Notes under the pieces: model-generated | Told to the model about the DNA's origin: nothing | The model's input: the letters and a program-made list of their open reading frames with translations, nothing else | The model's database searches: none | Assembly (NCBI GenBank): GCA_903926465.1 | Contig: CAIYJE010000092.1 | Coordinates: 1-33,148, forward strand | Origin: an uncultured Planctomycetales bacterium | GTDB taxonomy: Bacteria > Planctomycetota > Planctomycetia > Isosphaerales > Isosphaeraceae | Direction of reading: 5' to 3' | DNA length: 33,148 nucleotides | In this document: one piece after another, positions 5,502 to 29,798 of the stretch | Numbering within the stretch: position 1 is the stretch's first letter | Layout of the letters: each line of letters opens with the position of its first letter | Translations under genes and position numbers: made by a program

Positions 5502-6971
5502 ATGTTTGATCCTGTACATCAGTTCCCGAGCCGGTCTCACGCGATGTTCGGGCTCCAGCCGCGCCGGACGTTCCTGTCGGGTTTTGCCGCGATGGCGTTT
5601 GGGGCGATGTTGCATCGCGATGGAGTGGCTCGCGAAGGGGATGGATTCACGCCCCCCGATGGGAAGCCACACTTCCCGCCCAAAGCCAAGAGCGTGATCT
5701 GGCTGTTCATGAACGGCGGCGTGAGCCACATGGAGAGCTTTGACCCCAAGCCAATGCTCTCGAAATACGGTGGCAAGTCGATTGCCGAAACGCCGTATGC
5801 CGACACCCAAGATCCCAAGAAACTCGCCATCGAGCGACTGGTGGTCCCCGACGCCAACGGCAACCAGCGGAACCTGCTTTACCCGTTGCAGGTTGGGTTC
5901 AAAAAACACGGCCAGAGTGGGATCGAGATCAGCGACTGGTTCCCACATATCGCCGGCCAGGTCGATCGCATGGCCATCGTTCGCTCGATGTGGACCACCG
6001 ACAGCAACCATGGCGCCCAGACCCAGTTCCATTCCGGGCGGCATCAGAATGATGGTGATTTTCCCAACCTCGGAGCCTGGGTCCATTACGGGCTAGGCTC
6101 GCTGAACGATGATTTGCCGCAATACATCTCGATCGGGAACCGAGAGTACTGGAACAAGAAAGACGGTCATTACCTGGGCCCGGCCCATGATGCGGTGCCG
6201 CTGCGGATTGATCCGAAAAACCCCTTGGATTTTGGATCGCCAGAGCGTCCGATCACGCCCGAGTCTCAGGCTGTGGGCGTAGAACTGCTCAGAAAACTGA
6301 ACGGCATTCGTGCCGCCGAATCTCCACGCGATGCGGAGCTGGCCGCTCGCGTGGCATCTTACGAACTGGCGTTTCGGATGCAGCGGTCTGTGCCGGACGC
6401 GGTTGATTTTTCCCAGGAGAGTGAAGAGACGAAGAAGCTGTACGGGCTGGATCTGCCGCACTGCCGGGATTTTGGCATGCAAATGCTGGCCGCCCGGCGG
6501 TTGGTGGAACGGGGAGTGCGGTTTATCCAGGTTCAGCATGGCGCAGGGGGTGCAGGTGCCTGGGATGCGCACGGTGCGCTCAAGGGGAATCATCAGGGGA
6601 ATGCCTTGGCCGTTGATCAGCCGATTGGTGCGCTGCTGGAAGACCTGAGCCGGCATGGGATGCTTGACGAAACCCTGGTCGTTTTTGCCACGGAGTTCGG
6701 CCGGACGCCGGGTTCTCAGGGCTCGGACGGCCGAGATCACCATATCTTTGGCTTTAGCGTCTGGATGGCGGGTGGCGGAATCAAAGGGGGCGTGGTGCAT
6801 GGTGCAACCGATGAAATTGGCTTCCACGCGGTTGAAAATCGGCATTATGTGACCGACGTCCATGCGACGATTCTCAAGCAGCTCGGGCTTGATAGCCATC
6901 GGCTAGAGATTCCCGGCCGCAAGCGGCTGGATATTGACCATGGCAAGCCGATTGACGCGATTGTGGCGTGA
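5502..6971 (+). CDS. DUF1501 protein (sulfatase-like fold), partner of the DUF1549/DUF1553 protein
   Basis: 489 residues. The start ATG at 5502 has GGAG at 5492-5495. It begins 27 bases after the preceding stop, so the two genes are probably one transcript. The N-terminus carries a twin-arginine-like leader ([16 protein letters not shown]), suggesting folded export by Tat. DUF1501 features include [18 protein letters not shown] near the N-terminus, [16 protein letters not shown] in the middle, [20 protein letters not shown] and the glycine-rich [19 protein letters not shown] before the end. The family is related to alkaline phosphatases/sulfatases, and these His and Asp residues plausibly bind metal. 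The substrate is unknown. It is full length. Confidence 0.9.
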
Positions 6972-13048: not shown

Positions 13049-14431
13049 GTGGGCCAGAACCGCGATCACGATTTATCCCCGGTACCGAACCGGCGCGGTT
13101 TTTTGCGTGCGGGTGCCGGTTGCCTGACGCTGGCTGACCTGCTGGCCTTGCGGGCCCAGGCAGACACCGTTCAACCCTTGCAGAGGGAGCGGACGGCTCT
13201 GATTATTGTCTGGCTTCAGGGCGGGGCCAGTCACCTGGAAACGTATGATCCCAAACCGGATGCTCCCTCCGAAGTGCGTGGTCCTTATGGCGCAATTTCT
13301 ACCAATGTTCCCGGGGTGCATGTCAGCGAGTTGCTTCCCATGCATGCGGCGGTGGCTGATAAGTTCAGCCTGCTGAGATCGCTGGCCCACACGGGCATCT
13401 GCCATCAGCAGGGAAATCAGCAGATGTTCACGGGGCACCCTGAGCAAATTCTCAAGCTTCGCCCAGAGCATCCAGATATGTTCTGCGTGGCCAATCAGGT
13501 GCGAACCGAGAGAGGTTCGGAGCGGGCCTTGCCCGCCTATGTGGGGGTAAACCCCATCCCTTACCTGGGCAGTTCCTACATGGGGCCAGGCTGGGAGCCG
13601 TTTGTGGTGGGGGGTGATCCGAACCTGCCCGAGTTTGTGGTGCCGGGTTTGGGTGGCGGCCATTTGCCAGACTCGGGGCCGCTGGGAGATCGGATGGGGC
13701 TGGTTCGCCGTCTCGATTCGGTGTGTGAGTTGTTCGATGATCCGGTTCGGGGCCTGGCCTTTGACTCATTCCGGGAACGGGCGTTCCGGATGCTCACAGG
13801 TCCAGAAGCACGGCGTGCATTTGACCTGTCGCTCGAAGACCCAAGAATTCGAGACCGCTATGGTCGAAATACCTGGGGCCAGCGCTGCCTGATGGCAAGA
13901 CGTTTGGTGGAGGCGGGTGTGGATCTGGTGACGACCAGCCTGGACGGCCCGCTTTGTGGGCGGGTGGGAAACTGGGACGATCACGCCGTGAACCACCACA
14001 TTTTTGATGCCATGAAACTGCGGTGTCAGGTCTTTGATCGGGCAGTCTCCGCACTCATTGAAGACATTCACGCCCGCAACCTGGATCGCCGGGTGATGGT
14101 GGTGGTTACCGGCGAGTTTGGTCGGACTCCCAAGATCAGTTATGAGGCCGACTCCACCAGTGGGGTGAAGCAGCCCGGTCGAGACCACTGGCCACATGCC
14201 GTTTCGTTACTGCTGAGCGGAGGCGGCATCACGCCTGGTCAGGTTGTGGGGTCCACCGATCGAACCGGCGCCGAGGTGCGCAGCCGCAAGGTCGGCGTGC
14301 GAGACCTGATGGCCACGCTGTATCATCATCTGGGAATTGACGCCGCCAGGCTCACTCTCACCGACCGAACCGGTCGGCCTGTTCCTGTACTCCCAACCGG
14401 CCAGCCCATTGCAGAACTGATCGGTTCGTAA
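13049..14431 (+). CDS. DUF1501 protein with twin-arginine leader (first of a tandem pair)
   Basis: 460 residues. The start is GTG at 13049, preceded by an AGGGGG ribosome binding site at about 13037-13042. The leader NRRGFLRAGAGCLTLADLLAL is a good Tat signal. DUF1501 features are IVWLQGGASHLETYDPKPDAP, the VTGEFGRTPKI motif near residue 350, GRDHWPHAVSLLLSGGGITPG and a C-terminal HHLGID segment. It is predicted to act outside the cytoplasmic membrane with an alkaline-phosphatase/sulfatase-like fold. The substrate is unknown. It is followed 46 bases later by a paralogue. No DUF1549/DUF1553 gene adjoins this pair. Confidence 0.9.
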   Translation: MGQNRDHDLSPVPNRRGFLRAGAGCLTLADLLALRAQADTVQPLQRERTALIIVWLQGGASHLETYDPKPDAPSEVRGPYGAISTNVPGVHVSELLPMHAAVADKFSLLRSLAHTGICHQQGNQQMFTGHPEQILKLRPEHPDMFCVANQVRTERGSERALPAYVGVNPIPYLGSSYMGPGWEPFVVGGDPNLPEFVVPGLGGGHLPDSGPLGDRMGLVRRLDSVCELFDDPVRGLAFDSFRERAFRMLTGPEARRAFDLSLEDPRIRDRYGRNTWGQRCLMARRLVEAGVDLVTTSLDGPLCGRVGNWDDHAVNHHIFDAMKLRCQVFDRAVSALIEDIHARNLDRRVMVVVTGEFGRTPKISYEADSTSGVKQPGRDHWPHAVSLLLSGGGITPGQVVGSTDRTGAEVRSRKVGVRDLMATLYHHLGIDAARLTLTDRTGRPVPVLPTGQPIAELIGS

Positions 14432-14477
14432 AGCGAGCCTGGTTTCGATAACCGAAGCGTGTTGGAAGTGGAAACCG

Positions 14478-15884
14478 ATGATCGACCCCCGCCTGAAACT
14501 CAACCGACGCTCATTGATCCAGCTTGGTGGCGCTGGGTATCTGGGTCTGAACCTGGGTGGGCTATGGAGGGCGCAGGCTGCTACTGCTACTGCCTCTCAG
14601 GTTGCTAGCCCCAAGGCAATCCGGGCCTGCATTCTGGTTTTTTATTACGGTGGCCCCAGTCATATTGACACCTATGATCTCAAGCCAGACGCGCCCGCTG
14701 AGATTCGTGGGGAGTTTCAGCCGATCGCGACCTCGGTTCCGGGCCTGAAGATCTCTGAGCATTTGCCACGCATGGCGCGGGTGATGGACAAGGTTGCCCT
14801 GATCCGATCCGTGCATCATGCGGCAACCTTGCATGATTCGGCCTCAATTCATGCCCTGACTGGCCGGCCGCTGGAAGGCCCAGATCGGGAACTGTTTGCC
14901 CCCCTGCCCCAGTTCTATCCCAGCTTTGGCAGTTCCGTAGCGTACATGAAGCGCTCAGAGCCTTGTGAGGTTCCGTTCGCGTCTTTGCCTTATGTGTTTC
15001 ATAATGTGGTGCCGACCCCGTGTCAGGGGGGCGGGATTCTAGGTAAGGCGTATGATCCGCTTTTGATCGACGTTGATCCAGCCAAGAAGATTTATCCGTC
15101 AGATCTGTTCCGCGTTCCCGACGGCTTGGACCTGGTACGTCAGGGGCAGCGGCGTGGCCTACTGGAAGCGCTGGATTCTGGCCATGGCGTTTCCGGCCCG
15201 ATCCAAGGTTTTTATGACAAAGCGTATCGGTTGCTGGAATCCGAGTCGATTCGCGATGCGCTGGATATTACCCGCGAGCGAGATGAGGTGCGTGAGCGGT
15301 ATGGGTTTGGAGATCCGCCGATCGATAAGGGGGAAGTGAACGGCGGCGGCGGTGAAATGGCCTATGCGCGTCAGATGAGGGGGCAGAATCTGCTGCTGGC
15401 ACGCCGGTTGGTGGAAGCCGGGGTCCCGTTTGTGAACGTGTATGACTGCCGGACTCAGGGCCAGAACTGGGACGCGCATGCCAACTGTGCCAGCCAGCAC
15501 AAACGGTTTCTGCTGCCGCTGGCCGACCAGGCGCTATCGGCACTCATCGAGGACCTTGACCAGCGAGGCTTGCTGGAATCAACCCTGGTTGTAGCGACCG
15601 GCGAGTTTGGCCGTACCCCCAAGATCAACAACACGGCCGGGCGCGATCACTGGCCAAACTGTTACACCGTGCTCATGGCCGGCGGTGGCGTAAAAGGGGG
15701 TGCGGTGTTCGGGGCCAGTGATAAGCAGGGCGCCTACCCAGCCACCGATCCGGTGACACCTGGAGACATTGCGGCCACCATTTACTGGCGGTTCGGAATT
15801 GACCATACGGCCATGATTTATGACCAGATTGGCCGGCCACACCGGTTGTCGACAGGCGAGCCGGTGCGCCAGATTTTTGGTTGA
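14478..15884 (+). CDS. DUF1501 protein with twin-arginine leader (second of the tandem pair)
   Basis: 468 residues. The start ATG at 14478 has GGAAG upstream. The leader LNRRSLIQLGGAGYLGLNLGG fits Tat export. Conserved family blocks are VFYYGGPSHIDTYDLKPDAP, HLPRMARVMDKVALIRSVHH, NWDAHANCASQHKRF, VVATGEFGRTPKINNTAGRD and VLMAGGGVKGGAVFGASDK. It is similar in plan to the preceding gene, suggesting an old tandem duplication, but is clearly diverged. Its stop is only 3 bases from the end of the convergent purine nucleoside phosphorylase gene, so the two transcripts must overlap or share a terminator region. Confidence 0.9.
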   Translation: MIDPRLKLNRRSLIQLGGAGYLGLNLGGLWRAQAATATASQVASPKAIRACILVFYYGGPSHIDTYDLKPDAPAEIRGEFQPIATSVPGLKISEHLPRMARVMDKVALIRSVHHAATLHDSASIHALTGRPLEGPDRELFAPLPQFYPSFGSSVAYMKRSEPCEVPFASLPYVFHNVVPTPCQGGGILGKAYDPLLIDVDPAKKIYPSDLFRVPDGLDLVRQGQRRGLLEALDSGHGVSGPIQGFYDKAYRLLESESIRDALDITRERDEVRERYGFGDPPIDKGEVNGGGGEMAYARQMRGQNLLLARRLVEAGVPFVNVYDCRTQGQNWDAHANCASQHKRFLLPLADQALSALIEDLDQRGLLESTLVVATGEFGRTPKINNTAGRDHWPNCYTVLMAGGGVKGGAVFGASDKQGAYPATDPVTPGDIAATIYWRFGIDHTAMIYDQIGRPHRLSTGEPVRQIFG

Positions 15885-19909: not shown

Positions 19910-20648
19910 CATCCACCTGTGTCTCGACTGGCCCGATCGCGATCGTCGCTTGATTCAGTTCCTTGAGCAACTCGACTCAAGTGACCGTGTGTTTATTGTG
20001 GGTGATTTGTGCGATTTCTGGTTTGCCGCACAGGAACGGAACCGGCCAGACGCAATCACTCCGGGCCTGGCCAAACTCCGTGAGTTTGTCGAGCAGGGTG
20101 GAACCCTGGTTCTGCTGCTCGGAAATCACGACGCGTGGCTGGGTGATTTTTATCAGAAGCAGGTGGGCCTACCAATCAGAGGTGAACCGCTCGAAGTGGA
20201 TTCGTTCGGTCTAAAAATAAGGCTCGAACATGGGCACCGCAACAAAGCCAAACCGGTCTGGAAAGCCTGGCTGGAAGGGCACACGTTTTTTCGGATCTAT
20301 TCCGCGCTACCGACACCAATCGCCAGACTGGCCCAGCGAACGCTGGAAAAGGTCAATGCCCGAGGCCGGAAGAAGGCGGATCGCGAGATGATTGCCGCCT
20401 ACGAAGCATTTTCCGATCGACTTCAACCTGCGCCAGATATTGCCACTTTTGGGCATGTTCATGAGGTGCATGTGGCGCACCTGAACGCGACCCGTGTCGT
20501 GGTACTGGGTGATTGGTTTGAGCGGTCCAATTATTTGCGAGTGGATAGCCAAGGGGCCAAGCATCTCTCGCTTCCAGATGTCATGGCCGTTCCTGGCACG
20601 CCCGTTGTGCCCCCCATCGCCGCTCAGAATTCGTTGAGTTTGTCATGA
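19887..20648 (+). CDS. LpxH-like metallophosphoesterase (UDP-2,3-diacylglucosamine hydrolase family)
   Basis: 253 residues. The start ATG at 19887 lies inside the preceding gene and has GGGAGGGTGG upstream. All calcineurin-like metal motifs are present: SDIH (Asp8, His10), GDLCDFW (Asp40), GNHDAW (Asn80, His81), EHGH (His115, His117) and GHVHE near residue 190. The overall pattern matches LpxH-type enzymes, which cleave UDP-2,3-diacylglucosamine to lipid X in lipid A synthesis. No other lpx gene is nearby, so the substrate is uncertain. It overlaps the next gene by four bases (ATGA). Confidence 0.8.
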   Translation: MADYFLSDIHLCLDWPDRDRRLIQFLEQLDSSDRVFIVGDLCDFWFAAQERNRPDAITPGLAKLREFVEQGGTLVLLLGNHDAWLGDFYQKQVGLPIRGEPLEVDSFGLKIRLEHGHRNKAKPVWKAWLEGHTFFRIYSALPTPIARLAQRTLEKVNARGRKKADREMIAAYEAFSDRLQPAPDIATFGHVHEVHVAHLNATRVVVLGDWFERSNYLRVDSQGAKHLSLPDVMAVPGTPVVPPIAAQNSLSLS

Positions 20649-21286
20649 GTAAAATTGATCACCACCTGCACACCACCCGCTACTCTCCCGATAGTTCCAT
20701 TGATCCCTACGACCTGCTGGAGAAAGCGGTCGAACTGAAGCTCAACGGCGTCGTGATCACCGAGCACGATGAACAATGGCCGGCCGATGAGCTTGCGGAA
20801 CTTCAGAGCCACCGCCCCGAGTTGCTGGTGCTCAGCGGCGTGGAAGTCTCTGCGCGAGAAGGGCACTTTCTGGTTTACGGCTTACCGGATCTCAACGAAG
20901 TTCAGCCTGGAATCCTGCTCAGAGACTTGCTGGCCGTGGTTCACGCGTACAACGCGGCCATTGTGGGCGCCCATCCGTTTCGGTGGGGGCAAGACTTCAC
21001 GCAGATCGTGACCGATCATGGGCCGGTTTTTGATGGGCTCGAACTGGTCAGCAACAACGTAACACCTGAGACGCGCTCGGACACGGCCCACCTGCTTCAG
21101 AGTTATCCGACGATCGGTGCCACCGGTTCAAGCGATGCACACCAGCGCAGCACAATCGGTTGCTATTACACGCACTTTGAAGCCGACATTCGATCAATGG
21201 CGGACTTCGTCAGGGCCTTGAAATCTCGACGATTCCGGCCCGGTTACCAGCCCGACGGGCCTCTGTCTAGTGGGCCAGTGGAGTGA
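20645..21286 (+). CDS. PHP-domain phosphoesterase-like protein
   Basis: 213 residues. The start ATG overlaps the preceding stop (ATGA). The PHP metal-binding motifs are in order: DHHLHTTRYSPDS at the N-terminus (His7, His9), VVITEHDEQW, SGVEVSAREGHFLVYG, GAHPFRWGQ and GSSDAHQRSTIG. These are the trinuclear metal ligands of histidinol-phosphatase/polymerase-associated PHP proteins. The short length and lack of extra domains fit stand-alone PHP hydrolases, whose substrates vary (nucleotides, phosphoesters). It is the third hydrolase of a tightly overlapping trio, so the three products probably work in one process or are co-regulated. Confidence 0.85.
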   Translation: MSKIDHHLHTTRYSPDSSIDPYDLLEKAVELKLNGVVITEHDEQWPADELAELQSHRPELLVLSGVEVSAREGHFLVYGLPDLNEVQPGILLRDLLAVVHAYNAAIVGAHPFRWGQDFTQIVTDHGPVFDGLELVSNNVTPETRSDTAHLLQSYPTIGATGSSDAHQRSTIGCYYTHFEADIRSMADFVRALKSRRFRPGYQPDGPLSSGPVE

Positions 21287-21392
21287 GAGCCGTCGCGAGT
21301 TATGGTGAGCCCCGTTAGGGTGCCATCATGTACTTGTGTGTAAAAGCGTTCAATCTTTTCTATTCTCCTGAGTTTCCTTGAGGGTTCTGGCC

Positions 21393-23390
21393 TCAGGATC
21401 GATTCAGATAATGCGCCAGGATTTGCTGGTTGACCTGGGTGTTTTGCGCGTTGAAGTAAGACTGGTGTGCAAGACCTGGCTGATACTCTTGAGCGTCTGG
21501 AACGCAGAGGGTCGGGTATTCGACATCAACCTGAAACGGATGGTTCTGGATCTGGCCGCCGATCGGGTCGCCCTGGGCGTTCAGGTTCAGCCATCGGCTC
21601 ACAACGGTGGGTCTGGAACCGTCCTGGTTTTGTGGTAAAAGCCGCTGGCCAATGGGGAAAAGCGAGAGCGCCGCACCCAGCGTAAAGAAATTGCGGACCC
21701 GGCCCGAACCAGTACCTGGATCTAGCGAGCGGAGCCCTTCATAGGCGATAACGCTCCCGCATCCATGGGCAATCAGATCAACCTGGCAGCCCCCCTTGAG
21801 CAGTGGCTCCACGACCTGTTGAAAGCCGTTAAGAACTAGAATTCGCAGCTGATCATCGAACAGGTATCCAGCAAGCTCCATCAGGGCGTCGCCCGCCAGG
21901 TGAGGTAAACCGTTCTCGCTGGAGTTGGTCATGGCGTTAGCAGAGACCAGAGTTGGATTGCAGAAAGTTGGGCCGGCATTCCTGGCATTTCGACCAATCC
22001 GATCTTCGAGCGCGCCCCTGACCCGCGCCATCCATTCTTGCCTGCTCGATAGATTCCCCGGCGGTGTGGAGTCGTTTGTCCCATGCTGGTTCCAAAGAAA
22101 CTCGCGGCGAGTCTCTGGCCCACCGTTGCCATACGCGCTGGTGTAAGGCTGGAGAGCGGCCCACCAGCGATCAGAGAATCCTGGAGTCTGGGCACCAATG
22201 TCTGGAACATAGATCAGACAGCGGCCGGGTACTTGAGCAGGTTCCAGGCGGGGAGCCTGGGCTGGAGCATGCAGCGCGGCCTCCATCAGATCTGCGACCC
22301 GATTCTTCAGCCTGGTGGGCAATCCGTTTTCGGGGCTGGAGATCCAGTGAAGAACGGCGGCTACGGCCTCGGCATCGGTCGGCCCGGCGGCGGGGTCTTG
22401 GATGAGCGAGGGAATTGGCCTGAGTGTGAGTGGGGCCAGCACGTGGCTTGGTTTGGCTGGGCCATTTTCTGGTTTTTGGAAAAGCGGGCCTTTGAGATCT
22501 TGTGGCTCAAGCCTGGGTGCTTGATTGAATTGATCGTCGGCCAGGGCCTGCGTGATCAAGCTGATCAGGGACCGATGATCAATGCCCGGGCCGTGAACTC
22601 GCATGGTTTTGCAAAGCTGATAGGTGAAAACACCTCGGTGATCGTCTTCGAATTGAGCCTCAACGGCGGTCTGGTTCTGGCCACAGGCCGTGAGGATGAC
22701 CTGATCAGAACCAACGGCCGTTCGAGGGTTGGCCGTCGTTCTGGAGGCCCGTTTGATGGCCAGCGCTCTGGTTTTTTCCTGAATCGCCACGGGGGGTTCA
22801 ATAAAGCGTGTCCCAACCGCATCCGGTCCGTCGGGGTCGATGGCACTGGCGGCAAGTTCCGGGGTCAGTTCTTGTCCCTGGGCCGCGGCACGCCTCAACG
22901 TGCTTGGTACTTCCAGGCGAATTGGCTCGCCGGTGGCTGGTGAGAGCACCAACCGTGTGCCGTTACCGCTGTGACAGAGGTCCAGAATCAGAATCACTCG
23001 GACCCCTTCGGGTCGGATGTTGATCCAGCGATGCAAATCGGCATGGGTGAGAAAAGTTGCCGGATCTTTGAAATCAAGATCATGGAGGCAAAGGATCTGG
23101 GCCCTTGCATCGGGCTCGTTTCCCTCGCTATCCGCCACATACGACCCGCACCCCGCGAAGTAGAAAAAGACCTCGTCACCGGGCCTGGTATTGGCGTATA
23201 GCCATTTGAGTTGCTTGTTCAGTTCCTGGCCGGTTGCGCGTTCATCCAGCAGGGTTCTGACATTCCTGGGATCAAAAGCGAGTTGGTCCAGCAGGACCGC
23301 CTCAACATCCGCAACATCGTGAATACAGCCTCTGAGAGGCGGATACTTCTTGTATTCATTCACGCCAACCAGAAGCGCCTTGCTTGCCAT
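21393..23390 (-). CDS. Caspase-like (C14) protein fused to an alpha/beta-hydrolase-like domain, both catalytic sites altered
   Basis: 665 residues from the ATG at 23388-23390, chosen because GGAG lies 9 bases upstream and MASKALLVGVNEYKKYPPLRGC is the usual caspase-domain opening. In-frame ATG at 23405 and TTG at 23429 exist. The p20-like domain covers about residues 4-290: LRGCIHDVADVEAVL, VFFYFAGCGSY, VILILDLCHSG (Cys139), then ILTACGQNQTAVE. The catalytic His expected in (S)GHG is Cys81 (codon TGC at 23150-23148). The C-terminal part (about 390-665) looks like an alpha/beta hydrolase: CLIYVPDIG, then QVDLIAHGCGSVIAYEGL, where the nucleophile Ser is Gly543 (GGA at 21764-21762). No signal or membrane segment is seen. 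It lies 229 bases downstream of a rhomboid gene. It is either a pseudoenzyme/scaffold or uses altered chemistry. Confidence 0.85.
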   Translation of the reverse strand: MASKALLVGVNEYKKYPPLRGCIHDVADVEAVLLDQLAFDPRNVRTLLDERATGQELNKQLKWLYANTRPGDEVFFYFAGCGSYVADSEGNEPDARAQILCLHDLDFKDPATFLTHADLHRWINIRPEGVRVILILDLCHSGNGTRLVLSPATGEPIRLEVPSTLRRAAAQGQELTPELAASAIDPDGPDAVGTRFIEPPVAIQEKTRALAIKRASRTTANPRTAVGSDQVILTACGQNQTAVEAQFEDDHRGVFTYQLCKTMRVHGPGIDHRSLISLITQALADDQFNQAPRLEPQDLKGPLFQKPENGPAKPSHVLAPLTLRPIPSLIQDPAAGPTDAEAVAAVLHWISSPENGLPTRLKNRVADLMEAALHAPAQAPRLEPAQVPGRCLIYVPDIGAQTPGFSDRWWAALQPYTSAYGNGGPETRREFLWNQHGTNDSTPPGNLSSRQEWMARVRGALEDRIGRNARNAGPTFCNPTLVSANAMTNSSENGLPHLAGDALMELAGYLFDDQLRILVLNGFQQVVEPLLKGGCQVDLIAHGCGSVIAYEGLRSLDPGTGSGRVRNFFTLGAALSLFPIGQRLLPQNQDGSRPTVVSRWLNLNAQGDPIGGQIQNHPFQVDVEYPTLCVPDAQEYQPGLAHQSYFNAQNTQVNQQILAHYLNRS

Positions 23391-23522
23391 TTCGCCCAGC
23401 TCCATCCCGCCCGACAAGGTTCGCACCAACGGTGATTCCGCAAGTCCGTCGGTCGTTTTCGAGATCCTCCCCCGCGTGGGCGGCCAAAGGACGAACCAAT
23501 GTACCGACCATCACCTTTCTCA

Positions 23523-23537
23523 ATGAGGTTACCTCAT
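23523..23537. promoter_or_regulatory. Perfect 7-1-7 palindrome upstream of the caspase-like gene
   Basis: ATGAGGT-T-ACCTCAT is a perfect dyad 133 bases before the caspase-like start codon, in the 229-base gap after the rhomboid gene. Size and symmetry fit an operator for a dimeric regulator. The regulator is unknown, and chance is possible. Confidence 0.4.
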
Positions 23538-23619
23538 CGGCTGGCGGGGCCATAGAGTTTCCCTGGATTTCCTAGATTTTGCCTTGGGGTCAAATCAGGC
23601 CAAAACCAGGCATCGGGGT

Positions 23620-24930
23620 TCAAGAGGGGGCCGTCTGAACCGCTGGTTGGCCAGGCGCTTCATGCTGCTCAACGGCTGGCGGCTGCTGTTCTGGTTGAGT
23701 TGCGGGCGAATTCCCGCCCCTGGGAAGAAGAGGAGCATTGGGTTGAGACGCGTTGGGGGGCGTTCCAAGAGTGGATCGAACGCCCATTCGAAGGCACTGG
23801 TGCTGGTGGTTGGCAAGGTTCTGGCGCAGCTCTTGCTCAACCCGCTGGACGACCTGTGGCTCAAGCATCCGGAACAGTGAGATCTGGTTGGGTGTTAACC
23901 GAGAAGTCAGGCCAATCTCGGCCAGCTTGCGCCAGTAAGCCAGAACCCCGGTGGGATCCTTGGCCAGAGCATGGGTTTCTTCGTCGAGCGAGTCGACCTG
24001 CTTCAAGGCGGTGGCCAAGGTGGTACGTTCACGTTCCAGCTCAGCGAACGCGCGATCGCCTGGCTGGGCGGTGGTGGTGATGGGGGAAGCTGCCAGGCGG
24101 AGGACCAGAGGTTGGGCGACCACGGTGCGGACCAGTTGCTGACGCAATTGATAATCTTGCTGAGCCATGCGGGCAAGCTGCGCCAGATCATTTCGGTTGG
24201 ACGACATTTGACCGAAGATACTGCCAATGCCCACCAGCAGCGCGAGGGCACCAAGCAGGATTGATGTTTTGCGAGCCTGAAATCGAACCAAGAGTGGGTC
24301 GGCCAGGCCGACCAGCACCCCGGTAACTGCCCCACAGGCATGAACCAGGTTGTCCACGTGCGGGATGATCATTCCCATCGCACCGATCAGAATCAACTGG
24401 ATTCCCATCTGCCCCAGAATGTAGTCACCAAACCGCGACCGCTGCCGCCAGCCCACAATGGCAATAAGCGCGATCATTCCGCAAATGACGCCCGAACCGC
24501 CTCCACTCTGGGTGATGGCACTCTGGCCGAAGATCGGCCTGAGAAATGTGGCCATCAGGTTACTAACAATTCCCAGTACCGCGTAAAGTAGAGCAAATGT
24601 GCCGCTGCCGTACCACGGCTCAATCACCCGGCCAAGCTGGTAAAAGACGATCGTATTGATCACCAGGTGGACCAGGCTGAAATGGATGAAGGTGGCCGTT
24701 AACGTGCGTTGCCACTGCCCGCTCAGAACCGCCTCGGTGCTCAAGCTGCCGAACTGGGAAGAAACTCCCGGCTGGATGCCGCCTGAGATCCAGTTGCCGC
24801 CTTCGGCATGGAGCTTTCCCTGCGTCCACGCCATCAAGACGTAAACCACAACCCATGCGATGGCAATGACTACGGTTACCGGCGCGTACTCTTTTTCGCT
24901 CGATTCGCTGGGTGGAGCGAGTTCACTCAT
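23620..24930 (-). CDS. Rhomboid-family intramembrane serine protease with cytoplasmic C-terminal extension
   Basis: 436 residues from the ATG at 24928-24930. An ATG nine codons upstream overlaps the previous gene further. The membrane domain spans about residues 15-245. TM2 holds the His/Asn cluster (IHFSLVHLVINTIVFYQLGR, with His83, His88, Asn92). The catalytic Ser146 is in SGGGSGVICGM, and the catalytic His197 is in NLVHACGAVTG. All rhomboid essentials are therefore kept. The last 190 residues are soluble: an amphipathic, partly coiled-coil region (QQDYQLRQQLV, FAELERERTTLATALKQ), then a Pro/Gln/Ala-rich tail. The gene overlaps the DUF1802 gene by 8 bases, so the two are co-translated. The substrate is unknown; the nearby caspase-like protein has no membrane segment of its own. 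Confidence 0.88.
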   Translation of the reverse strand: MSELAPPSESSEKEYAPVTVVIAIAWVVVYVLMAWTQGKLHAEGGNWISGGIQPGVSSQFGSLSTEAVLSGQWQRTLTATFIHFSLVHLVINTIVFYQLGRVIEPWYGSGTFALLYAVLGIVSNLMATFLRPIFGQSAITQSGGGSGVICGMIALIAIVGWRQRSRFGDYILGQMGIQLILIGAMGMIIPHVDNLVHACGAVTGVLVGLADPLLVRFQARKTSILLGALALLVGIGSIFGQMSSNRNDLAQLARMAQQDYQLRQQLVRTVVAQPLVLRLAASPITTTAQPGDRAFAELERERTTLATALKQVDSLDEETHALAKDPTGVLAYWRKLAEIGLTSRLTPNQISLFRMLEPQVVQRVEQELRQNLANHQHQCLRMGVRSTLGTPPNASQPNAPLLPRGGNSPATQPEQQPPAVEQHEAPGQPAVQTAPS

Positions 24931-25513
24931 GGGAGGCCCCTGGTGGAATGGCGTCAAGTGCCTGCTGAATCGAGGTGATCGCAGCGTGATGATCTACGTC
25001 TGAAAGCACCGGTACCAGCCCCGCCATGGAGATTGGCTCTGGCAACGGCACCCACGAGTGGCAGCCCTGAAACTCGGGCCGCTGAGCAAGCCAGAAGATT
25101 TCAGGACGCTTGTAAACACGAACGGTGAGCAACCAGAGCCCCGGTGTGCGGTACCGGAAGCGACTTTCCAAAGTCTCTGGTGTCCACAGGTGGAAACAGT
25201 CTAAAGCCCTGACCTGCGCCAGGTTTTCCAGCCTGATCACGTGAACAACCTCAGCCAGACCGGTGATGGCAATCCGCGGATCGGTGGGCTCGTCGGGTGC
25301 CACCACTCTTAACCCCTGAGCTTGCTGGTGGGTATAGGTGGGGAACAGCCAGAAACGGGCATGTTCGGGCGTGAATCGTCCCTGAGCTTCAGCGATTCCC
25401 CCTTTGCGGAGGATGATCGACTGCTGGCCAGCTTCCAGAGCCTGGCAAATCCCAGCCCATTCCTTGAAAGCGATATCGCAGGATCCGGATTCAGTGAGGG
25501 CGGGAGTGTTCAT
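24923..25513 (-). CDS. DUF1802 family protein
   Basis: 196 residues. The opening motif AFKEWAGICQALEAGQQSII followed by LRKGGIAEAQGRFTPEHARF and WLFPTYTHQQ is typical of DUF1802. The C-terminal half has a conserved aromatic patch (RYRTPGLWLLTVRVYKRPE). There is no signal peptide or membrane helix, so it should be cytoplasmic. The function of the family is unknown. The start ATG overlaps the gpsA stop (ATGA), and its own stop overlaps the rhomboid start by 8 bases. It is thus the middle gene of a tightly coupled gpsA-DUF1802-rhomboid unit. Confidence 0.85.
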   Translation of the reverse strand: MNTPALTESGSCDIAFKEWAGICQALEAGQQSIILRKGGIAEAQGRFTPEHARFWLFPTYTHQQAQGLRVVAPDEPTDPRIAITGLAEVVHVIRLENLAQVRALDCFHLWTPETLESRFRYRTPGLWLLTVRVYKRPEIFWLAQRPEFQGCHSWVPLPEPISMAGLVPVLSDVDHHAAITSIQQALDAIPPGASHE

Positions 25514-27466: not shown

Positions 27467-29527
27467 TCAACCCTGGGGGCGTGGGGCAAGAATCAGCCGC
27501 AGCCAGCCAGAGGGGTCTAGCGGGCTAACATCAACCAGGGCCACGTCTGGCCGGTTCAGGGCCGCAACGGGTAGGTCGAATGTCTGGCCCACAATCTTGC
27601 TGCTCAACCCAGCGGAAACTACACGAGAGACGATGGGGTTGAGCGGCTGGGCCGATGCTTCGTCTTTATCAATGGCTTTCACGCTGAACTTGGGGTCCAG
27701 GTTGAAAGAGGTGACCTTGGCCTTGAGCGCTGGGGGGACCGCGGGGTTCGATCGGTCGAGGAAGACCGACAGTCCCAGTTGGACCGATGGTGCGGCAATT
27801 CGGTAAACGCTGGCGGCTGGGCCACCCACTGCGCCGCCTTTGAGTTGCGAGGGAGCAGGCACATCAAGCTGAAAATCTGGGATGGAGACGAGCAAGTCTC
27901 CGTTGCTGGCCACGCTGTAGTCTGGAGCCCTGGACGGCTTCAGAATTCGAACCAACTGCGAAGCATTACCGGCTTGCTGGCCTTGCTGGACCGCTTCCAG
28001 ATAGGCAGGAAATTCAACGTTGCGGCTGATTTTGGGGGCGGTACCGGGCGCTGCGGTTCCGGCAGGCGCTTCAATTTGCAGCGAGGTGATGCCCTGAATT
28101 TCCGGGTTCTTGAACGCCCCATCGGTGAAATTGGCCAAGACCGAAGGGACGTGAAGATCGGCGGTAATGCCCGGTTGGAAGGACAGCAGCTTGCGAGGCT
28201 GCGGGAAGGTTGCCCGCCGCGGCTTTGGAGAGTCAAAGCTGTACAGGTTTCCGTGGGCGGTGGCGTAATTCGAACCAGTGGTCAGTCTCAGATTTGTGAT
28301 TCCGACACCGTTCGCCCCCACGGTCTGACCGTCTAGCACGTAGGGCCTGAACAGGGCATTGGCTCTGGCGGCTCCCTGCGAGGACTTGATTCCGGAAAGC
28401 TCACGAGCGTTCGAAACCACTTCGCCGGGCAGTTTCGCCATCACCCCTTGTTGAACCTTATCGGTGATCGCCTTCTGGTTCTGGCCCAGCAAAGAGGCGA
28501 ACATCCGCTTGAATCCGGCTCCGGCCACGGGCGTGGTATTCACGGCGGCGTTGACGGCGTGCTGGTAACCTTGTGCCAGTTGCAGGCCGGTGCCAATCTG
28601 GAAAAGGGCCACCATGGTCACCACGGCATCGTCTCTTGTGGTGGCCGAGAAGCGGTACATGCTGGTGGCTTGCTTGGCACGAGGGTCATTGGCTTCCATC
28701 TGCTGCTCAAAGCCCTGGATGGACGTCATGCTGGTAAAGGCCTGCTGAACCACAATCTGAACGCCGTCGGCGGTGGGCTGGAACCCAATCCCCTGCACCG
28801 GCCCGGGCGTGACGTAAGACCACTGACCTTTGAAGAAGATCGGGCCTGGTTCCACAATTCCCTTGGGCATGATGAAAGATGTGAGTGCCGAGTGGTCTAT
28901 GGTCACTTCCACGTTCGGCTGCAGGTACAAGCTTGCGAGCGCAGCCACCAAGGTGTCTGAGTGAGCATTGGCCGGCAGATCGGTTCGGGTTTGGAGCGTG
29001 CTGATGGCGTTATCGATCGACTCGGCGGCCCTGGTGCGATCGGCTGGGGTTTTGGCCCCTTCAAGTGCACCCACGGCCGGGCGCAAGGTTTTCTCAATGA
29101 AATCGGCCCAGCGCTCACGCTCTGGCGACCCCTTGGTGGTCTGTGCCAAGGTCTGGTACTCGGCCCAGGCCAGCGCAATTCGGGGCCTTAGCCAGTAACG
29201 CAGGTCGTCACGCACCTGAGCCTCTGCCGGCGAGGTCGTTTGATCCAGGGTGGCCACAGACTGGTGCAGCCGGTTCAAGGCGGCCACCCGGGCGTCTGCA
29301 TCGGTGGTGCCGGAGTAGGCCTGGAGGTCGGTCCGCAACCCCTTCACGAAGTCGGTTGCCCTGGCAAGTTCAGGGTTGGTGGCCGGGTCTAGGCCCTGCC
29401 ACTGCTTCTCAAGGCTCACGATCGAAGCTTCAATTTCCGCATAACTGGGAGCAGGAGTTGTCTGCGCCTCTCCACGTCCCATCAAACTCGTCAGTAAAAC
29501 AGTCAGGCCCAACCATGAGCATTTCAT
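27467..29527 (-). CDS. Large secreted protein of unknown family
   Basis: 686 residues. The start ATG at 29525-29527 is set by AGGGAG 6 bases upstream and by the signal peptide that follows (MKCSWLGLTVLLTSLMGRGEAQ); the open frame continues upstream to 29752 without such features. Residues 25-200 are helical and Ala/Thr-rich (YAEIEASIVSLEKQWQGLDP, DARVAALNRLHQSVATLDQ). The remainder alternates beta-rich and linker segments, with VEVTIDHSALTSFIMPKGIVEP and FQPTADGVQIVVQQAFTSM in the middle and LVDVSPLDPSGWLRLILAP at the end. No known catalytic motif and only isolated cysteines are seen. It sits after a membrane-anchored TPR gene and before a strong hairpin. Function not recognised; an envelope or surface role is plausible. 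Confidence 0.8.
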   Translation of the reverse strand: MKCSWLGLTVLLTSLMGRGEAQTTPAPSYAEIEASIVSLEKQWQGLDPATNPELARATDFVKGLRTDLQAYSGTTDADARVAALNRLHQSVATLDQTTSPAEAQVRDDLRYWLRPRIALAWAEYQTLAQTTKGSPERERWADFIEKTLRPAVGALEGAKTPADRTRAAESIDNAISTLQTRTDLPANAHSDTLVAALASLYLQPNVEVTIDHSALTSFIMPKGIVEPGPIFFKGQWSYVTPGPVQGIGFQPTADGVQIVVQQAFTSMTSIQGFEQQMEANDPRAKQATSMYRFSATTRDDAVVTMVALFQIGTGLQLAQGYQHAVNAAVNTTPVAGAGFKRMFASLLGQNQKAITDKVQQGVMAKLPGEVVSNARELSGIKSSQGAARANALFRPYVLDGQTVGANGVGITNLRLTTGSNYATAHGNLYSFDSPKPRRATFPQPRKLLSFQPGITADLHVPSVLANFTDGAFKNPEIQGITSLQIEAPAGTAAPGTAPKISRNVEFPAYLEAVQQGQQAGNASQLVRILKPSRAPDYSVASNGDLLVSIPDFQLDVPAPSQLKGGAVGGPAASVYRIAAPSVQLGLSVFLDRSNPAVPPALKAKVTSFNLDPKFSVKAIDKDEASAQPLNPIVSRVVSAGLSSKIVGQTFDLPVAALNRPDVALVDVSPLDPSGWLRLILAPRPQG

Positions 29528-29610
29528 TGCCGTCTCCCTGTAGTTAGCCTCACGCTGAATTCCGGGGGCACTCGCGAGGTGCTGCATATCAATTGTGTAT
29601 CGCCCGGCCA

Positions 29611-29631
29611 GTCGGCCCGCTTCAGGCCGAC
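29611..29631 (-). other. GC-rich hairpin in the leader of the 686-residue secreted protein gene
   Basis: GTCGGCC (29611-29617) and GGCCGAC (29625-29631) are perfect 7-bp arms with a 7-base loop. They lie 84 bases before the start codon in the 271-base gap to the TPR gene. This could be a terminator remnant of the TPR gene (no U-run) or a 5'-leader structure. Confidence 0.35.
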
Positions 29632-29798
29632 GCAGCAAGTTTCCGGAGGCAAAGCATCGTTGTAACAATTGGTCGTAATCTACCACCGAGTTTACCCAGC
29701 ATAACAACAGGCTGAGCTTCTCGTAACCGACTTGCCCGGATGCCAGAGTCACTCAGCGTGGCAAAGGCTCTTGAGGGGGCCGTCTCTGGGAGACTCGT

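Follow-up and report, generated by a model that had tools for sequence, protein, structure and literature searches.

Both active sites replaced in one caspase-hydrolase fusion protein: a probable lineage-specific double pseudoenzyme

We describe a gene of a planctomycete bacterium that fuses an N-terminal caspase domain to a C-terminal alpha/beta-hydrolase-like domain, and in which residues at both active sites have been replaced. The gene lies at 21393-23390 on the reverse strand of the window, by which we mean the whole stretch of DNA analysed here; the window is the entire contig 92 (33,148 bases) of a 6.9-Mb genome in 207 contigs with a completeness of 99.66%. It forms a single open frame of 665 amino acids counted from the ATG at 23390, and the frame stays open from a TTG at 23429 down to the stop at 21393. 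Cys81 occupies the position of the caspase catalytic His and Gly543 that of the hydrolase nucleophile Ser. An earlier note on this DNA had reported the open frame and both replacements, and our analysis confirmed all three. We put the probability at about 0.6 that this is a lineage-specific double pseudoenzyme, with catalysis lost in both fused domains. The product probably folds and acts by binding, without cutting.

Results

The caspase domain has lost its catalytic histidine and its alignable calcium ligands

The caspase (C14) domain spans residues 1-309 (22464..23390, reverse strand) and has p20- and p10-like parts by Pfam and model alignment. Pfam Peptidase_C14 (PF00656) matched residues 4-300 with an E-value of 4e-22. 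The AlphaFold2 model of the whole protein had a mean pLDDT of 69.7 and was confident over most of the caspase part, with block pLDDT of 85-98 as far as residue 140. Residues 2-309 of the model were superposed on metacaspase 4 (6w8r_B) with Z 27.8 and rmsd 4.5 over 249 aligned residues. Both sequence and predicted fold place the domain by descent among the C14 caspase and metacaspase homologues. Positions 232-306 of the family profile matched Yca1 chain positions 268-340 (i-E 2.2e-05), which we take to be the p10 part, and the predicted model aligned to Yca1 134-432; the p10-region match to Yca1 was not significant for the window sequence on its own. With the p10 part identified on this assumption, the domain has the make-up of a pseudo-metacaspase, in which a substituted dyad goes with both a p20 and a p10 part. 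A pseudo-orthocaspase would share the substituted dyad and lack p10, which the window protein appears to have.

Cys81 (23148..23150) stands at the catalytic His position within the motif FAGCGS, and the nucleophile position is retained as Cys139 (22974..22976) within DLCHSG. All eight other fused members of the family have His at position 81 and Cys at 139. Across 129 aligned rows other than that of the window, some of them duplicates, position 81 was His in 127 and Gln in 2. The same picture emerged from 168 distinct caspase domains, collected with a profile that itself includes the window protein: 165 were His-Cys, one was Gln-Cys, one was unaligned at the Cys, and the window protein alone was Cys-Cys. 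Viral loci in this set were fetched by pattern, and one pattern permits only His or Cys at position 81. A Gln-Cys caspase (L007, motif FSGQGS) was also seen at 1501-2304 of a 2994-aa open frame in a genome of the window's family (G020).

The surroundings of the dyad were compared with TbMCA2, for which the available part of PMC4357240 assigns Cys92, Asp95, Ser156 and Asp211 to the S1 pocket and Asp173, Asp189 and Asp190 to calcium binding (numbering in our mapping is chain position minus 20). The S1 residues correspond to Cys22, Asp25, Ala79 and Asp137 in the window protein, so that three of the four are kept; Ala at position 79 is not rare, occurring in 14 of the 168 caspase domains, the window included. 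All three calcium ligands that can be aligned are replaced, and a fourth, Asp220, falls outside the alignment. Asp173 aligns with the first residue of Ala97-Gln98 (23097..23102), a pair that reads Asp-Glu in the eight other fused members. Asp189 and Asp190 align with His116-Ala117 (23040..23045), where the other fused members have Asp at 116 in all eight cases and at 117 in six. Compared with an active C14 peptidase, the domain thus has most of the S1 pocket and neither the His-Cys dyad nor the three calcium ligands compared.

The hydrolase-like domain has lost its nucleophile and putative oxyanion loop

The alpha/beta-hydrolase-like domain comprises residues 380-665 (21396..22253, reverse strand). 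Set against the alignment of hydrolase-like relatives (A7), this part shows 37% identity across 284 columns (E 2.6e-49). It was unmatched in Pfam at E 0.001, and two Pfam matches at E 0.09 and 0.24 were taken as chance. At the nucleophile elbow the window protein has Gly543-Cys544 (21759..21764) within AHGCGS, a pair that reads Ser-Trp in all 14 other relatives. The motif of the family is [SAG]HSWG[TS], and not the GHSxGS that the earlier note had expected. The putative oxyanion loop is also changed, with Pro396-Asp397 (22200..22205) in place of the His-Gly found in 13 of the 13 others that have the region. Asp608 (21567..21569) and His642 (21465..21467), each invariant in 14 of 14 others, are retained as the candidate catalytic acid and histidine. 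Of what an active alpha/beta hydrolase needs, the candidate acid and His are therefore present and the elbow nucleophile is missing.

Structure prediction, which the earlier note had proposed as a check on Gly543, placed this residue in the predicted elbow turn, between a strand at 536-542 and a helix at 544-554 (block pLDDT 83-87). The model of an intact relative (L057) has a like layout, with a strand at 534-540 and a helix at 543-556. The hydrolase part was modelled less well than the caspase part, and in fold comparison of both whole-chain models the lists were filled by caspases, so that the hydrolase fold rests on this predicted elbow together with weak profile matches. In hydrolase-superfamily profile searches the relatives gave at best Thioesterase (E 0.004) and 3lcr_A (E 0.0074), and the window's own C-terminal part gave no match.

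Other fusions of the family have intact sites

At least eight other proteins carry the same fusion: G011 (Isosphaeraceae bacterium KatS3mg108, L058), G014, G415, G522, G549, G582, G706 and L057. All have the domain order of the window protein, and L057, G011, G014 and G415 are 31-40% identical to it per domain. Unlike the window protein, all eight have an intact His-Cys dyad and elbow Ser together with the oxyanion-loop His-Gly. G011 shares its family with the window's genome, which we accordingly assign to the Isosphaeraceae. Hydrolase relatives that stand alone were found in G026, G036, G063, G546 and G521, while G702 has a 151-aa fragment. The alignment of 14 relatives omits five weak hydrolase-like matches, in G020, G036, G062, G013 and G063 (E 2e-8 to 7e-4).

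The searches covered overlapping sets of 59 genomes of relatives, 45 of the order, 397 of the class and 392 of the phylum, together with a scan of GTDB genome contigs. Further family members may exist, since only the best two to three candidates per genome were scored in the class and phylum searches (E<=1e-30) and the contig scan kept the best 80 of 459 loci. The patterns used for the GTDB contigs avoid the catalytic residues and so introduce no bias towards intact sites. None of 40 caspase relatives on viral contigs was a caspase-hydrolase fusion of this family, as judged by match ranges. The genus of the window is represented among the 45 order genomes only by the window's own genome. The earlier note had held that normal sites in close relatives would indicate a strain-specific decay; half of that objection stands, in that relatives in other genera do have normal sites, and among the genomes compared the change is therefore lineage-specific.

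The contig that carries the intact fusion L057 (CAIOGZ010000047.1) bears the label of a cyanobacterial metagenome-assembled genome, which suggests that either the gene crossed from one phylum to another or the contig was wrongly binned. In five further proteins (L095, L123, L135, L210 and L212) the domains are in reverse order, with a hydrolase-like N-terminus and a caspase C-terminus, and the elbow motif reads AHSLGSL, GHSLGSL or AHSYGGL. They come from Rhizobium, Erythrobacter and Prosthecobacter and, in two cases, from genomes of the window's class. A comparison of the hydrolase family with L095 in hhalign was weak (probability 11.5, E 0.0026). These proteins raise the possibility of more than one origin for the caspase/hydrolase pairing.

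The gene sits within a conserved convergent pair

In the window, the fusion gene lies between a PHP gene (20645-21286) and a rhomboid gene (23620-24957). Among 44 other genomes of the family, 31 had their best matches to both genes on one contig, four had them on different contigs (among them G007, whose rhomboid match is weak), and in nine one or both were absent or weak. In all 31 the rhomboid and PHP genes were convergent and adjacent, with matched ends at most 792 bases apart, compared with 2339 bases in the window, where the interval holds the fusion gene. Best matches were picked by hand, split matches being merged in G031, G018 and G009, and the PHP match of G033, counted as weak, had an E-value of 4.7e-4. 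G011 carries its own fusion gene at another place, and not at the rhomboid/PHP site. The arrangement is best seen as an insertion of the fusion gene between rhomboid and PHP in the window's lineage. Codon-position GC of the gene (0.66/0.46/0.62) resembles that of its neighbours, which suggests that the insertion is old enough for the gene to have become like them in composition. Codon preference was inside the neighbours' range except for a lower score at residues 401-500; we infer no frameshift there, since the frame-0 family alignment crosses the whole stretch.

A search for traces of mobile elements in 20900-24200 gave 12 families of direct repeats and 3 inverted pairs. One 14-nt direct pair (86%) flanks the fusion gene and was taken as chance, since both copies lie within the two neighbouring genes. 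A promoter scan found none, and the six terminator-like sites in the scan all fell within the fusion gene. A plasmid search with the C-terminal domain gave no match, the defence library matched only its generic 'caspase' model, and the single NCBIfam subfamily match was under its cut-off.

In searches of the window's genome, neither a further C14 domain (E<=0.001) nor a paralogue of any intact family member (E<=10) was found. No shared neighbours were found around four of the eight fused relatives (G011, G014, G415 and L057; frames of at least 120 aa, blastp E<=1e-5; the G014 stretch ends at a contig end). The only window gene matched there was the fusion gene, and what matched it were the fusions of these relatives themselves and, in G415, a second caspase. 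The latter (C1 3586896-3587942) lies on the opposite strand just past the intact fusion (3584775-3586826) and has one TAG within the matched stretch. Elsewhere in the window are a tandem pair of DUF1501 genes (13049-15884), a third DUF1501 gene (5502-6971) beside a PSCyt1/PSCyt2/PSD1 gene, and a 761-aa frame (27467-29752) with neither a Pfam match at E 0.1 nor a PADLOC match at E 0.01.

Divergence extends beyond the active sites

The window protein departs from its relatives at 23 of 98 family-invariant columns, 10 of 48 in the caspase domain and 13 of 50 in the hydrolase domain. These columns were derived from 8 fused and 14 total relatives and replace counts of 20/65 and 23/76 from a smaller family. 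When each of the other members was left out in turn, it departed at 0-3 of 38-41 caspase columns and 0-6 of 30-43 hydrolase columns. Two independent losses had been proposed from the sequence at first; this falls short of the 23 invariant columns changed, and independence of the two is unsupported. The departures were enriched at catalytic, S1 and calcium positions (8/14 versus 15/84, one-sided p 0.0035; without W544, 7/13 versus 16/85, p 0.011), for position sets that were picked after the alignment was seen, and 15 of the 23 sit away from the active sites. In the tree the window has the longest end branch, at 1.67 changes per column, followed by L208 at 1.61, with the other end branches at 0.91 or below; a clade of G549, G582 and G706 sits on a stem of 1.0, and 8 of 12 inner branches were drawn open. 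Since L208 and this clade are long-branched yet have intact sites, branch length alone is not a sign of loss.

A pseudoenzyme is a likelier reading than decay, unusual chemistry or a dominant-negative role

A rather unlikely reading, though one to be taken seriously, is that of a pseudogene in early decay, in which the enzyme became unneeded in this lineage, constraint was relaxed, and stops and frameshifts are yet to come. The long window branch fits relaxed constraint, invariant residues are lost across both domains, and the location is lineage-specific, with neither a paralogue nor a shared neighbour found. A small share of drift could also leave the frame open: in neutral simulations on the smaller family (142 columns), which like all our runs began from the window sequence and not from an ancestor, it was open in 182/500 runs at 5 losses and in 77/500 at 10 losses. 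What argues against decay is the extent of the change, since drift to 23/98 changed columns left no stop in only 7/1000 runs, with indels uncounted; the smaller family gave 0/1000 at 43/142 losses, and the milder 7/1000 is the figure used. It is therefore unlikely that the whole divergence came about through neutral drift. Codon-position composition is still coding-like, and the losses are enriched at functional positions while the two S1 acids, Cys139, Asp608 and His642 are retained. The hydrophobic core is kept in 43/45 columns, but neutral runs also average 0.89, so that core retention hardly discriminates.

The replacements themselves could be read as a gain of unusual chemistry, with Cys81 and Cys139 facing each other in the caspase pocket to form a redox or metal site, or with Cys544 acting as a displaced nucleophile. 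A Cys has indeed been gained both at the caspase His position and beside the hydrolase Ser position, Cys139 is kept, and Cys-Cys occurs in just 1 of the 168 caspase domains. Against this, the caspase has also lost its calcium-ligand positions and the hydrolase the His-Gly pair of its oxyanion loop, and the alignments contain no gap that would move Cys544 onto the elbow. We found nothing that speaks for either the two-Cys or the HGC chemistry suggested in the earlier note, and regard such chemistry as very unlikely. Least credible is a dominant-negative role, also suggested in that note and taken here to mean a partner to some active caspase or hydrolase made by the same cell. The model for such a role is cFLIP(L), a dominant-negative partner of caspase-8. 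In the portion of PMC7159879 available, dominant-negative or peptide-binding roles are likewise proposed for inactive caspases. Against it, a partner was sought in a genome of high completeness, and neither a second C14 domain nor a paralogue appeared at the thresholds given above; we consider this role highly improbable.

Discussion

A double pseudoenzyme remains the best reading of two degenerate sites within one intact frame, and was among the readings put forward in the earlier note. The gene would descend from a family of active-looking proteins that join a metacaspase-like protease to an alpha/beta-hydrolase-like domain, and it would have been placed in the gap of the conserved convergent rhomboid/PHP pair in the window's lineage. 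On the caspase side, the dyad His and the calcium-ligand positions would then have been lost, and on the hydrolase side the nucleophile Ser and the oxyanion loop, while the frame, the predicted caspase fold and the two S1-pocket acids would have been retained. The losses, their absence in the aligned relatives, the intact frame and the insertion site can be read off the sequences themselves. From these we infer that the protein has neither proteolytic nor ester-hydrolysing activity and was retained for binding. Most likely it serves as a scaffold or peptide-binding module, with an acidic pocket that could still take basic peptides. Action via a sister enzyme is not expected, as no active paralogue was found in the genome.

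A more specific form of this reading, which we regard as quite unlikely in its full detail, is a selected double pseudoenzyme in which the dead caspase pocket is a receptor for basic peptides and the dead hydrolase a docking or lid module. Such a receptor might be gated by redox chemistry between Cys81 and Cys139 and could serve, for example, as a decoy in a conflict system.

Bacterial pseudo-caspases are known and their roles are mostly open. If the double pseudoenzyme reading holds, the window protein would offer a clean case for a role of the bacterial caspase fold without catalysis, having intact relatives and no active caspase found in its genome. That both sites were lost on one and the same branch further suggests joint action, as a single unit, of the two enzymes fused in this family.

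Among known systems, the yeast, trypanosome and plant metacaspases (4f6o, 4afr and 6w8r) share with the window protein the caspase fold with p20- and p10-like parts. They are active enzymes with His-Cys and calcium ligands, and to our knowledge these chains contain no hydrolase domain. Closer in their active sites are the bacterial pseudo-orthocaspases and pseudo-metacaspases described in the sections of PMC6426788 available, which like the window protein combine a substituted dyad with a kept acidic S1 pocket, two Asp being conserved in the known pseudo-variants. According to the same sections, pseudo forms make up 858 of 9,994 orthocaspases and 4 of 1,121 metacaspases, and the pseudo-dyads named there are Tyr-Ser, Tyr-Ala, Phe-Ser, Tyr-Asn, Tyr-Gly, His-Gly, Gln-Cys and His-Ala; the Cys-Cys of the window is not among these. 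Further differences from those orthocaspases, which are without p10, are that a p10-like part is present here and that a second domain is disarmed too. Substitution of the dyad is in itself nothing new: an excerpt of PMC3501461 gives an intact dyad in 84% of bacterial and 64% of planctomycete caspase homologues, and the part of PMC7159879 cited above describes about 70% of effector-position caspases as inactive.

That part of PMC7159879 also offers the nearest parallel to the domain pairing, in the VMAP conflict systems, where each VMAP protein with a caspase domain has an alpha/beta-hydrolase gene as its neighbour. The pairing is like that of the window protein; in VMAP systems, however, the hydrolase is a separate neighbour beside vWA-MoxR parts, whereas here it is fused into one protein, and none of the 24 other window proteins scanned had a Pfam match to vWA or MoxR/AAA. 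The locus therefore lacks, within the window, the companion genes of a vWA-MoxR system. In literature searches on related subjects we found no Cys-Cys bacterial caspase and no doubly disarmed caspase-hydrolase fusion, and a search on pseudo alpha/beta hydrolases gave nothing. Dead relatives of caspases are already known, and what sets the window protein apart is the Cys-Cys pair, the lack of an active sister among the matches in its genome, and the joint loss of both sites in one fused protein, a combination that appears to be new.
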